Origin: Rhizophagus irregularis
Taxonomy: Eukaryota; Glomeromycota; Glomeromycetes; Glomerales; Glomeraceae
Direction: 5' to 3'
Length of the DNA stretch: 64,000 nucleotides
NCBI RefSeq assembly: GCF_026210795.1
Contig: NC_089438.1
Location: 1,199,501-1,263,500, forward strand
Shown: positions 37,304 to 44,585 of the stretch, piece after piece
How positions within the stretch are numbered: the stretch's first letter is position 1
Layout of the letters: each line of letters opens with the position of its first letter
Made by a program: the position numbers and the translations under genes
Notes under the pieces: model-generated
Databases searched by the model: none
Seen by the model: only the letters and a program-made list of their open reading frames with translations
Told to the model about the DNA's origin: nothing

Positions 37304-39517
37304 ATGTCAACCATACGAAATGATTTAGTTTATGCTGCATATAAAAGGGCACATGCCTTGTTTAATCTTTATGATAATATTGATAAACGACATGAATTTA
37401 AACACAAACTATTCTTGTTGATAAATCACTTACAAAAGATGAAAAGTCAAAAATAATAAAATACCTAAATGAAGATTATGATTATAATAAAATTCTTTTT
37501 AATGAAGGGAAAAGAAGAACTTGTGAAATTTGTCAAAAAGAATGTTTAGCAACATTATATTGTGAATATTGTATTAGAAATTATTTAAAAGCAAAATTTT
37601 CAAATTGGACATCTGGAAATAATGATATTGATGATTTAATACAGAAATATCAAATGAAATCACTTCATCCAGAAAAGATAGTTGAATGGATTCCATTTAA
37701 TAATTTACAAAATATTAAATATTTAACTAAAGGTGGTTGCTCCGAAATTTATACAGCAGATTGGATGATGGAGAATATCAAAAATGGAATCCTACAGAAC
37801 AACAATTAATAAGATATGGATTTAAACAAGTTATACTTAAAAAGTTGGAAAATGTTGAAAATACTAATAGAAATTGGTTTGATGAGGTATAGTAATTGAA
37901 AAATATTCTCAAATCAAAGAATCTAATTATAATACTTAGACCATAACATTTTACTATGCCAATATATTTATTATTTATAATCAAGTGAGATTTGGCCTAC
38001 AGAAGGTTTTAACTCAAGATCCATCAAATGGAAATTACATACTTGTAATGAGAAAATTAAATGCAAATTTAAGAGAATATTTACAACATAATCATAGTAA
38101 ACTTACATGGGAAGAAAGAATTAAAATCGTTAATGAGGTAACAATAGCGCTTAGTAGGATTCACAGTGAAAATGCTATTCATAGAGATTTACATTCAGGA
38201 AATATTTTATATAATCAATATAAAAATTTTTGGCATATTAGTGATCTTGGATTTTGTGGACCTGCTGATAAACCACTAAAAAGTATATATGGAAATCTTC
38301 CTTACATAGCACCAGAAGTTATTGCTGGAAAAGGATATACTTTTGCATCTGATAATTATAGTATTGCAATGATAATGTGGGAAATTTCATCTAAACTACC
38401 ACCTTTTGCTAATTATGAAAATGATTATAATCTTGCAATGGATATTGTTAATGGTATGAGACCAAAGATTGTATCAGGAACTCCTTTAAAATATAAAAAA
38501 TTAATGGAACAATGTTGGGATGCTGATCCAACAAAAAGACCTGATATTTTTACAATTAGAGTTAAAATAAGAGCAATTAATAAGTTATGTTACCAAAATA
38601 CTATACGAGATGTACCAAATGATAAGATTTAAAAAAACAATAAATTTAAATAAAAAGAGTAGTTTAGAAATAATGAGGATTTACTATGCAAGTAGCAGAT
38701 TATCTATAAGTAAAACTTATCAATTTGAAAATCTACCTGAACCAAGAAATGCAACTGAAGGTATATTATAAATTTTCTTCTAAAATTTATTAAATTAAGT
38801 TTTTAATTACTATTTTTTTTTTTAAAAAAAAAATAAATACATATATAATAGAAGAGTTAGAAGGTTAGTAATATTTGAATTTTTTTTTTCATTAAAAGTT
38901 TAATTTTATTCTAATATGATGATATTTTATTTTTAAAAAGCATACCATAGTAAGCCCTATAGTTTTAATATTCCTGAAGATAGTAACTAGTAAGTATTTT
39001 TTATTTATAATAGCATTATACAATTATATATAAAAATAAGATTTCCTTTTCCAGTTGATGATTTCAATCAATCAAATCAGAATAATGATAGTACATCAAA
39101 AATAAATAGTATTGTTAAAGGTAAATATTAATTATCAAATTTTACTTTTGAATATATCAGTTATTAATTATTATTTGATAATATAGGAAATAGTAAAATA
39201 TAATTATCTAAAGTATTACAAAAATTGTCAAGAGATAGTAAGTTATTAATTTATAAATATGTTTTTTTTAATGTAACTAACTTTTAATTATATGTAATTT
39301 TAGATAAACAAGATAATTACGAAAAAAAAATTATAAAACAGCAAGTAAAGAAACAGGATGTTGGTGGTATGTAAACGTTTATAAGTCTAAAGCAATTTCA
39401 AATATCCTTACAATTTTTTTTTATTTCATAGATAATGATGATGATATTTTTAATAATCCAAATTTTCATTCTGAAAATCAAGACGAATTTGAAATTCCTG
39501 ATGGCAATTTTATTTAA
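37304..39517 (+). pseudogene. TKL-type kinase pseudogene with frameshifts
   Basis: A kinase gene of the same broad family but a different subgroup. Start ATG 37304 opens MSTIRNDLVYAAYKRAHALF; the frame breaks by about one base near 37410, and again near 37763 (GATTGGATGATGG). Between breaks are the cysteine cluster (C-E-I-C..C-E-Y-C), NWTSGN linker and a degraded glycine loop (KGGCSEIY). After an intron (about 37888-37985) the C-lobe is open from 37985 to 38632: HRDLHSGN, DLG, APE and CWDADPTKRPD are intact. A further frame change precedes the L-P-E-P tail (to 38759). Candidate small exons follow, the last, D-N-D-D-D-I-F, ending at TAA 39515-39517. Loss of the reading frame in the N-lobe makes an active kinase unlikely unless unrecognised introns remove the breaks. 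Confidence 0.7.
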
Positions 39518-41054
39518 TTGTTAAGAAATAATTTCAATAATTTAACATTAGAATAGTAGTTTTACTTATTTTAGACGGTTTTTAAATTATTCTATTATCA
39601 ATTACAATTATTATTTCAATATTATTTGGAATTATTTAAACACTAAGACTATTCTCAGTTTGTAATTTAAATCATTCATTTTTTTTACATTTGTTATAAA
39701 TTTATACTAACAATATTTTTATTATGCAATAATTAAATATATTTTTAAAATTTCATAAGATAAATAATATGTTAACTGACGCAAATCGACACCTGAAGCG
39801 CAACATTTATTTATCAATTTTAAAGTGTTAAGGATGCAACATATGTATATTACATTAGTTAATAAATCTGAATGAAATGAAATTATAAACATATTTACAT
39901 AATTTTTTTTACAGAATTTCTTTATAATATACTAATTTTATATACTAAAAAAGTGAAATAAAAAATATTTGTTGAAGTGTAAGGGATTTCGCGATTAATC
40001 GTTTCTCAAATTTCGATTCTAAATTCGATTTTCGATTTGATTAATCGTTTCTAATCGATTGTTCATCATTAAATTTATGGCCAATAATCACAAATTTAAC
40101 ATATAAATCATTTAATTATTAGATTTATGATTTTGTATTTAAAATAAAACGTTTATTGCACGAATAAATCAGTGATCGGCGGTAACTCTGGCCAAGCTTA
40201 TAATTCCGGCCAGAATTAACACTTTAATAACAAGATCTAATGTCACGTGATTTATAATTTCGTAATTTGGGCCGGCACTATAATTTCGATAATCGTGATT
40301 TAGAGACTCAGCAAATTTTAAAGAAAAGAACTCGGAAATATTTGGTAAAGCTCAAAATAAGATAAAATTATATCACCATTCTCGGATTAGTACTCCAAAA
40401 TTAGCAAAATTAGCGTATAATTTTTATTTTATATAAATCTTTACCAAATATTTCCGAGTTCTTTGAAATTTGTTAACATTATGAAATCAGTTGTAATCGA
40501 TTCTGATCGAATCGATTACAGTAATTTTCCGATTCCGATGCAAATAATTTAACTTCACATAATAAATATTTAAAAATCTTAATATCACATAAACGTTTTT
40601 CATATATCAGAAAAGATAAATTATGAAATGCAATTCTTTAAAAATATATCAATATTTCAATACAATTAATACAATTTTAATTTATTTAAATTAGAAAAAA
40701 TCATTAGTCTTATTCCGTTTTATATTTGGTTTTAAAAATATTTTTATTTAATAAATTGAGTAAATATGAGATAACTGAACAAATAAGTTCATAAAAGTTA
40801 AAACATAAAAGATAAATATAAAAAGATAAATATTTAAGACCAAAACTTCATAATTGTCCTATTATTCAGTTTTGATCGATATATTTTATAATTTCATCAA
40901 AAAAAAAAATCAAAATTATTGAAAAAAAAAAAATTTTTAAAAACTATGATGGCGGGTGGGGAAAAAAAATTCAAAAAATATAAATATTTTAATTTATAGT
41001 AACAAAACCACCAGATAGAAATTACTACTTTGGCTCGAAATTATTCAATTGCTT
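39518..41054. mobile_element. Spacer with palindromic elements, about 39990-40530
   Basis: Outer arms of GATTAATCG/AATCGATT-type units lie at about 39998-40062 and 40488-40545. Inside are a GGCCAAG..TTCCGGCCAGAATTAA block (40170-40205) and an almost perfect 40-bp hairpin: 40312-40351 and 40438-40477 (AACTCGGAAATATTTGGTAAAG and its complement). This looks like one or two fold-back elements nested. The rest of the spacer is A/T-rich with no gene. Confidence 0.4.
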
Positions 41055-44000
41055 TCAGATTTGTAATCCTAATTTAAAAAATGAATAAATAAAAATAAAT
41101 ATATTAGACACGAGTAAAAAAAAAATACATAATAGAAAATACTATTTACCATCTTTACAATCTCCGCCAATGTTTAATTGAGTAATATCAATTTGAAGGG
41201 ATTCTATTTTATAAGTTAAAAAAAAAATTAGCGCGTCATAAAAAAAAAATCAATTGAATTTTTTTTTTTTACTAATATATACCTATAGATCCCGTACTGA
41301 TCATATTACCATTTTCCTCATAATAATCATCAGAATTTTCTGTTTCAGGAAAATTATTATTATTATTGAATTTTAATTGAGAAATATCAATTTTTTTTAA
41401 GGATTCTATTTAGCGAATTAAGATTTATTAGTATTTACTTATTATTTTGATTACATTTTTTTCATAAAATATTAAAATATACCTGAATGTTTCATGTTAA
41501 TATCGTCATTTTTTTCGTAAATATCATTAGAATTTTTTAATTCAAATGGATCGTTAATATTTTTCAATTTGGAAATATCAATTTGTAATGATTCTATATA
41601 ATGATTATAAAATTATTAGTATTTTTTTACAATTAGAACAATTAATTGAATTTCTTTTGTTAATAAATACCTAAAGTTTCCACGCTAACAATATTATCAT
41701 TTTCTTTATAATAATCATCAGAATTTTTTGGTTCTGGAAGATTGTCAAAATCAAGCAATCTACTAGTATAAATAGCTTCTGAATGTGTTTCATATGATGA
41801 TGATAAACTGTTAGTTGATAATTTATTATTGATTACTTCTGCTTCTTCAATTTGTTCTCTTATATTTGTAAAACTAACGACGTAATATTTATTAGGATCT
41901 TGTGAATTAAATGATTCTTTAAACCATTGATTTGAATTCTTTTTAATTTCTTCTGCTGTTGGTCGTTTTAATGGGTCTGCATCCAAACATCTTTTAATTA
42001 AATGCACAATCAATTGAGGTACCTTAATATTAAACCTTGGTCTAAGTCCTTTACAAATTTTTATTGCCAAATCATTATCATGACTAACATCATGATATGG
42101 TGGTAATCCAGAAATTACTTCATACATAATTATACCAAAACTATAAATATCAGCAGCTTTAGTATAATTTTGACCTCGTAAAATTTCAGGTGCAATATAA
42201 GGTAAAACACCATATAATTTGTTTTTTCCATTCTCCGACAATTTATAATCTACGGGTTTACATAATCCTATATCACTTAAACAAGTAACACTTGCAAGCC
42301 TTAATATATTACCAATATGTAAATCACGATGAATTAATTCTTTTTCATGAATACATTCAATTCCATGCGCAATACTATTTAAATAATGAATCTTGTCACT
42401 CCAACTTAATTTGTTATAACTTGTATCTAAATAATTTCGTAAATTTCCATTTTCCGCATAATCTAAAACCATAATATAATTTTCTGTTTCTGGATCTTGA
42501 GTTATTCCATAAAATTTAATAACACGCTCATATAAATTTACTTTATGATGTAACGCAATCTATATATTTATAAAATAAAGATTAGTACCAAAAAATTAAA
42601 TAACGATTAAGTAATTATTAAATAATTCACCTCATTCATAAATTCCAATGTAATATTTTTTGAATTATTTAGGATTTTAAGAGCTACTAACATATTTTGA
42701 TCCTTTCTTTTCCAAAGTTGATAGTCATTATCCCATTTATCTATAAATCCATCAATCCACGTTGCTCTATACACGCTGCCAAACCCGCCTTTTGCAATAT
42801 ATTTAATATCACGAAATTTATTGTAAGGAATCCATTCTAATGCTTGCATTCCATTCTCATGAGCTAACAGCTGAGAATCTTGAATAAATTTATTAATATC
42901 ATCATTACCGCTAGTCCAATTTTTAAAATTTCGCCGAAAATATATTGAATTACACAGAACATTGCATTTTTCACATATATCATCCAAAATCAACATATAA
43001 TTCTTGGTTTCTTGATTTCGAGTTATTCCATAAATTTTATGAGACGTTGCGATCTACAATAAAATTAAATAGTAAACAAAAAAATTTTGAACGTTGTTTA
43101 GTTATTAAATGGTGCAATACAATGTGATGGTCAATTTACAAAGAAATAAAAAATAAATTTAAGATACCTCATTTATAAATTCTGATGTAACACTTGCTGG
43201 ATCATTTAAAACTTTCAGAACCACAAACATATTTTGTTTATCTCTTCTCCAATTTTGATTATTATTATCCCAACAACTCACATTTCCATCAATCCAATTT
43301 GCTCTGTACACATTGTCAAGTTTGTCCTTTACAATATCATAAAATCTATAATCAGGGACCCATTCTAATGCTGTTGATGCATTATGATGAGCTGATAACT
43401 GAGATTCCTGAATTAATTCATCAATATCATTATTGCCACTAGTCCAATTTCTAAAATTTCGCTGAAATTGTATCGAATTACACACTTCTTCACATTTTTC
43501 ACACATATCATTCAAAACTACCATATAATCCTTGGTTTCTGGATTTTGAGTTATTCCATAAACTTTATGAGGTGCTGAAATCTATAATATAATAAAATTA
43601 AATCCATTAGAAAAAAAATTTTTAGCTATTTTTAGGCTGATCAGCATATTAATGGCGTGATACAATGTATTACAATTTATGAAGAAATAAAAACAAATTT
43701 AAGATACCTCATTTATAAATTCTGATGTAATACTTGCTGGATCATTTAAAGTTTTCAGAATCACAAATATACTTTGTTTATCTCTTCCCCAATTTTGATT
43801 ATTATCATCCCAATGACTCATTTTTCCATCAACCCAATTTGCTTTGTACACCTCGCTAAATTTGTACTTTTTAATACCATGTAATCCTCTATTAGGTATC
43901 CATTCTAATACTTTTGGTACTTCATAGTTAAAGTGTGTTGATAGCTGTGATTCTTGAATTAATTTATCGATATCATTATTACCGCTAGTCCAATTTACAA

Positions 44001-44585
44001 ATTTTTGCTGAAAGCGTGTTGCATTACATTCAATATTACATTTTTTACACTTATTAGCATCAAAAACCACCATATAATTCTTGGTTTCTGGATCTTGAGT
44101 TATTCCATAAACTTTATAAGGTACCGAAATCTATATTACATAATAAATTAAAATATATTAGTTAATCAAAATTTGAATTATTTTATTACATAACAAATTT
44201 ATTATACCTTATACATAAATTCTAATGTAATATCAGCTGGATTATCTATAATCTTCAAACCTATTGACATATTTTTTTCATTTCTTTTCCAATCTTTGCT
44301 TACGTCATCCCAATGAACTATATATCCATCAATCCATTTTGCATTATATACTTTAACGTTTGTGATATATTTAACATCACATAATCTATCGTAAGGTATC
44401 CATTCTAATGCACGGGATTCATAATAACTATGATCTGAAAGCTGATTATTTTGAATTAATTTATCAATATGATCATTTCCGCTAGTCCAACTTTTAAAAT
44501 TTTGTTTAAACTGTCTTGCATTACATTCATAATTACAATCACATGACTTAATCAATTTTTTAATGCTTTTGGTAAAAGAATCCAT
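41055..44585 (-). CDS. TKL-type kinase with four tandem N-lobe modules and one C-lobe
   Basis: Nine exons: 44585-44208, 44130-43708, 43581-43168, 43053-42631, 42559-41671, 41593-41483, 41405-41283, 41203-41150, 41068-41055. All introns are GT..AG and phases agree, giving 942 residues with no stop. Exons 1-4 (126, 141, 138, 141 codons, all phase 0) are versions of one module: short cysteine motif (such as CEKCEEVC), NWTSGN or SWTSGN linker, and kinase N-lobe to helix C. Only module 4 keeps a glycine loop (KGGFGSVY, 493-500); module lysines remain (GLK, ILK, VLK, ALK at 531). Modules 2-4 begin with a KVYGIT-type strand that normally opens the C-lobe. Exon 5 supplies the single C-lobe: HRDLHIGN (Asp 625), DIG (642), APE (669-671), CLDADPLKRPT. 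Module 4 plus exon 5 form one complete kinase domain, about 490-750. Modules 1-3 look like pseudo-N-lobes. The tail repeats the motif E-S-L-x-x-D-I in exons 6, 7 and 8. Transcript evidence is absent; separate or aberrant transcripts are possible. Confidence 0.7.
42631..44585 (-). repeat. Four-fold exon duplication unit of the kinase gene
   Basis: Exon plus downstream intron is repeated four times with a period of about 530-555 bases. Intron sequences also resemble each other (for example GGTATCTTAAATTTG at two donors, and AG|AT(T/C)(T/G)C acceptors), so whole exon-intron units were duplicated, not exons alone. Units 2 and 3 are most alike (S-E-F-I-N-E-V-S at the boundary, NDPAS(I/V)TSEF), implying that they separated last. 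Unit 1 is most diverged in its glycine-loop region. Confidence 0.75.

Follow-up and report, generated by a model that had tools for sequence, protein, structure and literature searches.

The protein kinase fold is normally treated as requiring both of its lobes. In the JAK family and in the plant tandem kinase proteins, the dead units that stand in line with an active kinase are whole bilobal kinase domains, and the KIND domain (kinase non-catalytic C-lobe domain) is a single lobe. Here, we describe an array gene in a 64,000-nucleotide stretch of the Rhizophagus irregularis genome (the window; NCBI RefSeq assembly GCF_026210795.1, contig NC_089438.1, positions 1,199,501 to 1,263,500) in which four N-lobe modules precede one C-lobe, and we find that in this gene and its relatives the residues of the adenosine triphosphate (ATP) site are kept together only in the last module. 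The arrays resemble the JAK and plant tandem kinase proteins in that dead kinase-derived units are in line with one active kinase, but their dead units consist of just the N-lobe, as many as ~14 per array, without a C-lobe of their own. They also resemble KIND in that one kinase lobe is reused non-catalytically, but KIND is a C-lobe, whereas the arrays consist of N-lobes attached to a kinase.

Fungal pseudokinases are reportedly the subject of a 2019 study by Kwon et al., which may hold relevant material; they are said to have the kinase fold, to be thought inactive, and to be expanded in, or among fungi confined to, Glomeromycotina. The MLKL-like homologues reported for Glomeromycotina are of this same kind, and the available part of their description contains no half-domain arrays (PMC8778642). 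Kinase expansion in R. irregularis has already been published (PMC6123716, PMC8647823, PMC10234402); from the accessible portions of these papers, PF07714 is the most frequent motif among annotated species-specific and expanded genes (PMC6123716), and the kinase repertoire has 2,533 members (PMC10234402). The kinase made up of module 4 and exon 5 of the array gene belongs to this expanded TKL/PF07714 family, for which the same portions mention no tandem N-lobe modules (PMC6123716, PMC10234402). Our search of the open-licence literature, which covered titles, the starts of abstracts, and parts of papers, found no description of tandem N-lobe arrays.

The array gene lies on the minus strand (44585-41055). 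A gene model rebuilt by script reproduced the layout that an earlier note had read from the letters, namely, four phase-0 module exons of 378, 423, 414, and 423 nucleotides (126, 141, 138, and 141 codons) followed by one C-lobe exon, and nine exons joined by GT..AG introns into a stop-free frame of 942 codons. Each module unit runs in the order cysteine motif, NWTSGN helix, EWIPY strand, beta1-beta3, and alphaC, with strands and helices named by analogy with kinases. The exons are as follows:

Exon 1, 44208..44585, minus strand: start codon, short N-terminus MDSFTKSIKKLIKS, and module 1 (Cys motif, SWTSGN, EWIPY, beta1-beta3, alphaC).
Exon 2, 43708..44130, minus strand: beta4-beta5 of module 1 (ISVPYKVYGITQDPETKNYMVVFD), then module 2, with VILK and without a glycine loop.
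Exon 3, 43168..43581, minus strand: beta4-beta5 of module 2, then module 3, with VVLK and without a glycine loop.
Exon 4, 42631..43053, minus strand: beta4-beta5 of module 3, then module 4 (AKGGFGSVY, VALK, alphaC Glu).
Exon 5, 41671..42559, minus strand: full-length alphaC-beta4 segment, beta4-beta5, C-lobe (HRDLHIGN, DIG, APE), and start of the tail.
Exon 6, 41483..41593, minus strand: tail unit ESLQIDISKL...NSNDIYEKN, placed in part from repeats D7/D8.
Exon 7, 41283..41405, minus strand: second tail unit ESLKKIDISQL...NSDDYYEEN.
Exon 8, 41150..41203, minus strand: third, short tail unit ESLQIDITQL.
Exon 9, 41055..41068, minus strand: 14 nucleotides including the stop, placed solely from the open frame and the least certain part of the model; alternatively, a read-through reaches a stop after DGK.

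Exon units and domain units do not coincide: the junctions sit just past the alphaC Glu position, and the N-lobe begun in exon k is completed by the ~24 residues (beta4-beta5) with which exon k+1 opens. Two repeat families (D1 and D2) have four copies each, spaced 497-546 nucleotides apart, with 61-84% identity to the reference copy, and protein identity to exon 3 is 64% for exon 2, 57% for exon 4, and 41% for exon 1. As the earlier note had seen, the glycine loop (AKGGFGSVY) is present in module 4 only, with the beta3 Lys still in place in modules 1-3 (GLK, ILK, and VLK); ATP-site residues are otherwise confined to module 4, and module 1, which also lacks the glycine loop, has a Lys at the alphaC Glu position. 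Module 4 and exon 5 together carry the elements of a complete TKL-like kinase (AKGGFG, VALK, MNE, HRDLHIGN, DIG, and APE), with two deviations, i.e., the first Gly of GxGxxG is Ala and DIG replaces DFG. Pfam matched PF07714 to residues 489-753 of the spliced protein (9.2e-48), corresponding to module 4 plus exon 5, and found no kinase family in the first 430 residues, which cover modules 1-3, at E values up to 1; with five single exons of this gene as queries, a Pfam match was obtained for the C-lobe exon only. PDB relatives include TYK2, TAK1, ROCO4, IRAK4, and BRAF, and the HMMER alignment to TAK1 starts at VALK.

The layout is not unique, and 40 further arrays were read in the same genome. 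We searched 146,748,485 bases on 32 contigs. A strict DNA pattern for NWTSGN occurred 1,475 times versus 2 times for the reversed control, while catching only 126 of the 220 full class 1 modules, and a pattern for the catalytic loop (HRDLHxGNI) occurred 862 times versus 0 for the control. In three protein searches, each with the best 150 matches, modules matched at at least 418 distinct places, of which at least 321 lay in at least 90 clusters (two or more within 1.5 kb) on at least 22 contigs; at least 27 clusters held four or more such places. Matches were crowded at C2:4.85-5.87 Mb, C26:2.15-2.89 Mb, C14:0.25-1.2 Mb, and C16:0.5-1.4 Mb. Single-protein queries of viral and prokaryotic collections, which reach close relatives only, returned 3 and 15 pattern-matching stretches, respectively, and zero relatives.

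For detailed reading, 47 stretches were fetched from the genome. The first 20 loci were chosen mostly for visible clusters among the best 150 of 4541 candidates and from the NWTSGN listing, with module 4, a last module with a glycine loop, as the class 1 query. The next 18 comprised 6 NWTSGN places on contig C1 and 12 further protein matches, and all 12 of the latter, mostly lone or paired in the match list, proved to be arrays. Class 2 loci were chosen from clusters found with an upstream-module query. One fetched locus, L039, was left out of the counts.

The reading gave 41 arrays, including the window's gene, with 3 to ~14 modules each and in two sequence classes separated by a single change on the module tree. 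Class 1 comprises 32 arrays (the window's included) with 240 module slots and 3-15 slots per locus, where the 15 slots of L004 include one split module counted twice and thus stand for ~14, and where an array that runs past the edge of its locus has at least the number of modules counted. Class 2 comprises nine arrays (L010, L036/L040, and L041-L047) with 73 module matches and is marked by WCxxC cysteines and by GISQ where class 1 has GITQ. A C-lobe was in view in 30 of the 32 class 1 arrays (the stretches for L007 and L011 end too early) and in all 9 class 2 arrays; 37 of these 39 arrays had one C-lobe match, and L020 and L030 had two nearby. Given these C-lobe counts and the Pfam result for the window's gene, the arrays are not of the JAK or plant tandem kinase type, in which one chain has two or more whole kinase-fold domains. 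Among the 32 class 1 C-lobe frames, HRD was present in 29, DxG in 27, and APE in 29. Single-module kinases also exist, and they account for four of the six NWTSGN places on contig C1 (L033, L034, which has an extra distant fragment, L035, and L037); of the other two places, L036 is an array and L038 is a weak match without a C-lobe.

The position of a module in its array predicts whether it keeps the ATP site. In class 1, both glycines of the loop (G1 and G2), the Ala of VALK, the Lys, and the alphaC Glu were present in 30/30 last modules. Among the 190 other full class 1 modules, 2 had G1 and G2, 1 had the Ala, 172 had the Lys, and 70 had the Glu, and none had G1, G2, and Ala jointly. In class 2, GKGGF and VALK were present in 9/9 last modules, while among the 58 others, 1 (in L047) had a GG loop, 8 had the Ala (with 3 modules unscored at this residue), and 0 had both. 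With the classes pooled, the glycine pair and the VALK Ala occurred together in 39/39 last modules and 0/248 other full modules, after exclusion of 30 fragments and 12 modules that belong to other loci and with 6 of the 73 class 2 matches not full. Thus, no full upstream module of either class keeps both nucleotide-binding features, the glycine loop and the adenine-pocket Ala. Loci were chosen without the positional rule, although the class 1 query was a last module. The upstream modules of class 1 do keep three cysteine columns (94, 96, and 98% Cys), and class 2 modules have a CxxC...WCxxC pattern.

When the catalytic columns were left out of the tree, which is weak at ~115 residues, the label last or other switched 22 times for 39 last modules; shuffled labels gave a mean of 37 changes and a minimum of 33. 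By identity, the nearest relative was the last module of another array for 29 of 31 last modules and an upstream module of the same array for 159 of 197 upstream modules (L010, reassigned from class 1 to class 2, is still included here and in the dN/dS figures below). Catalytic state tracks position more than ancestry. Two upstream modules of L030, at 2951 and 3455, have a GG loop with a VILK or VILK-like beta3 and are possible traces of conversion from a last module.

The upstream modules are retained and are not plain debris, which supports the earlier note's reading of modules 1-3 as repeated pseudo-N-lobes that are not simply decaying. Among the four modules of the window's gene, the ratio of nonsynonymous to synonymous substitution rates (dN/dS) was 0.60-0.88, which, together with the excess of open frames, disfavours the neutral drift that had been raised for this comparison. 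For upstream class 1 modules, the corresponding ratio of proportions of differences (pN/pS) was 0.67 (bootstrap 0.62-0.74; 80 independent same-array pairs), and for last modules, it was 0.47 (15 pairs). The NWTSGN region had similar values in upstream and last modules (0.39 versus 0.34), and the glycine-loop region did not (0.80 versus 0.18). Constraint in upstream modules lies in the NWTSGN helix, the EWIPY strand, and beta2, with the glycine loop relaxed, and 28 alignment columns are at least 93% a single residue. Nine of the 240 slots are split by a broken frame, as is one module in L004, and none of these is a last module. This amounts to ~10 of roughly 209 class 1 upstream modules versus 60% expected without selection, based on a substitution-only simulation in which 113 of 189 upstream modules acquired a stop. 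Protection of the downstream kinase from stops could partly explain the open frames but not the constraint at the level of residues.

The DNA between modules is consistent with their being spliced together. Among 198 neighboring pairs, 178 resolved to GT..AG introns with a median length of 73.5 nucleotides (a multiple of three in 62), and the donor after alphaC was in phase 0 in 172 of the 178. A 311-amino-acid frame with two modules in L039 on contig C20 was considered as a processed copy that would prove splicing and was rejected as an apparent read-through of an open intron. An in-frame ATG just before module 1 was present in 19 of the 32 class 1 arrays, and for this reason, translation likely starts at module 1; a start at exon 4, which would have spoken against a multi-module protein, is disfavoured on the same ground. 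Some module exons may still be skipped. Of the remaining 13 arrays, 11 are apparently cut by the locus edge, and L013 and L020 lack a clear start. The N-terminus before module 1 is often related among arrays (MDSFxKSIKKLIKS-like). L009 and L026 instead have a hydrophobic stretch (IIxAFFFILIII) at the N-terminus, unlike the KSIKKLIKS-type start elsewhere, and this stretch is possibly a membrane anchor.

On balance, we lean toward the upstream modules forming a variable-length recognition or scaffold stack that feeds a single kinase, a reading that we hold to be somewhat probable and that corresponds to the binding array suggested in the earlier note. The N-terminal region of a TKL-type kinase would have grown as a single phase-0 exon, which encodes the Cys-motif/NWTSGN/N-lobe unit, was duplicated in tandem again and again. 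The upstream modules would be repeats that fold like an N-lobe, bind no nucleotide, and possibly carry a metal knuckle (CxxC), and the stack could recognise partners, ligands, or other modules and control or target the terminal kinase. Unequal exchange within arrays would renew the stack, while selection would keep the catalytic residues in the last position.

Several observations weigh against a functional stack. We infer from homology to module 4 that the upstream modules fold in an N-lobe-like manner, and AlphaFold2 models of exons 3 and 4, built from four-row alignments of the window, had mean predicted local distance difference test (pLDDT) values of 40.5 and 41.8 and are unusable. Likewise, we infer from DNA alone that splicing joins the modules in a single polypeptide. 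The single-module kinases L033, L035, and L037 carry a GGFS loop together with VILK; therefore, loss of the VALK Ala alone is no proof of inactivity, and VALK-to-VILK as the sole mark of a dead module was rejected. The linker had a pN/pS of 1.21 in upstream modules versus 1.29 in last modules and, being equally fast in the latter, does not point to selection specific to a sensor; for the same reason, a binding surface under positive selection is unsupported. Young same-array pairs (dS < 0.25) had median ratios of 0.83 over the whole module and 0.91 over beta1-alphaC, and selection on the upstream modules is weak and compatible with much relaxation. L039 (C20:591500-597500) is a decayed array with several short, broken module frames; the KGGFGKIY and VALK of its last module are still legible but are split over two frames. 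Finally, in the accessible part of one study, serine/threonine/tyrosine kinase genes of R. irregularis have a higher average CpG methylation than core genes (PMC8647823), and some arrays may, therefore, be little expressed.

Among the other explanations, the one that survives best is a nearly neutral ratchet, in which unequal crossing-over adds harmless in-frame exons that are tolerated as baggage without function. The highly variable number of modules, the ratios near 0.8-0.9 for young copies, the ~10 broken modules, and the decay of L039 are all as expected from such a process. However, broken modules are far below the 60% expected, 28 columns are nearly invariant in upstream modules, and constraint on the NWTSGN helix equals that in the last modules, so we regard a pure ratchet as unlikely.

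We consider it quite improbable that the arrays are splicing cassettes from which transcripts with differing subsets of modules arise. The idea draws on the phase-0 symmetry of nearly all resolved junctions, due to which the skipping of any set of modules preserves the frame, and mutually exclusive splicing has been described for tandem duplicated exons in the accessible parts of two papers (PMC9013439, PMC9741552). On the other hand, only the last module exon has the ATP-site residues; a kinase in which any other module adjoined the C-lobe would be dead, and the exons of a true mutually exclusive set should be able to stand in for one another.

The earlier note had also proposed that modules 1-3 compete for, or gate, the single C-lobe, and we judge such gating in cis, with upstream pseudo-N-lobes competing with or capping the C-lobe, to be improbable as well and unsupported as the main mechanism. 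Upstream modules are homologous to the active N-lobe, would lie in the same chain, and mostly retain the beta3 Lys (172/190 in class 1), all of which would suit a gate; the alphaC Glu, however, is present in only 70 of these 190 modules, and the widely varying number of modules per single C-lobe fits a one-to-one switch badly. The alphaC-beta4 loop anchors the N-lobe of a kinase to its C-lobe. In class 1, the C-lobe exon has an alphaC-beta4 linker of ~16 residues where the start of the exon was readable (25 of 32 C-lobe frames), and this linker is down to 4 or 7 residues in 160 of the 178 inter-module exons that could be resolved. In HMMER alignments, NLYERVIKF of exon 5 aligns with N-HPNIVKL of TAK1, and this stretch is missing from the shortened class 1 linkers. 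Because the docking segment is shortened, replacement of the active N-lobe by upstream modules is disfavoured for class 1 only. Class 2 often retains a linker of 10-18 residues, which favours gating there, and loss of the alphaC-beta4 loop in all upstream modules was rejected for this class.

An assembly artefact or a pseudogene family is highly unlikely. In favour of it, some modules are split, L020 and L030 each have a C-lobe that shows up as two matches, and Nanopore-based assemblies can carry indels. Against it, the four copies in the window differ by up to 39% in DNA and are too different for the simple artefact that the earlier note had considered, the available part of the report on the R. 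irregularis DAOM197198 assembly describes its coverage as uniform (PMC10234402), and 39/39 last modules of the counted arrays have the ATP-site residues.

The tail of the kinase (41150-41745, minus strand) is itself a small tandem-exon series of ESLQIDISQL and NSDDYYEEN units, with three copies of the first motif; a regular expression for the IDISQL-type motif found one or two copies in 16 of the 47 fetched loci. In the neighborhood of the array gene, a second kinase gene with a single module of another sub-type lies on the plus strand at ~37560-38632 (CEICQKECLATLYCEYC, NWTSGN, GGCSEIY, and a C-lobe with HRDLHSGN), in convergent orientation, with ~2.4 kb between its end and that of the array gene. 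Between them, ~0.6 kb past the 3' end of the array gene, an inverted repeat at 40325-40464 has 43-nucleotide arms that are 88% complementary and a 54-nucleotide loop; it could be a small mobile element.

In these proteins, one kinase lobe has been multiplied alone, in this gene and at least 40 other arrays from a single genome, and with a clean positional rule for the ATP site. Pfam-based kinase surveys would miss the N-terminal part of array proteins, because modules 1-3 match no kinase family in Pfam. More tentatively, and as a possibility that we rate below that of a recognition or scaffold stack as such, half of the kinase fold may have been turned into a repeat domain, with stacks of dead N-lobes as the reading head of a single-kinase sensor, present in scores of genes as a fast-evolving repertoire renewed by unequal exchange within genes. 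Such a repertoire would be comparable to repeat-based immune and self-recognition receptors in evolutionary style, not descent. The arrays open the questions of whether an N-lobe by itself can be stable and serve as a binding domain, how a lineage-specific kinase expansion diversifies its inputs in a root symbiont, and how one copy in a homogenising array is kept unlike its neighbors by selection.

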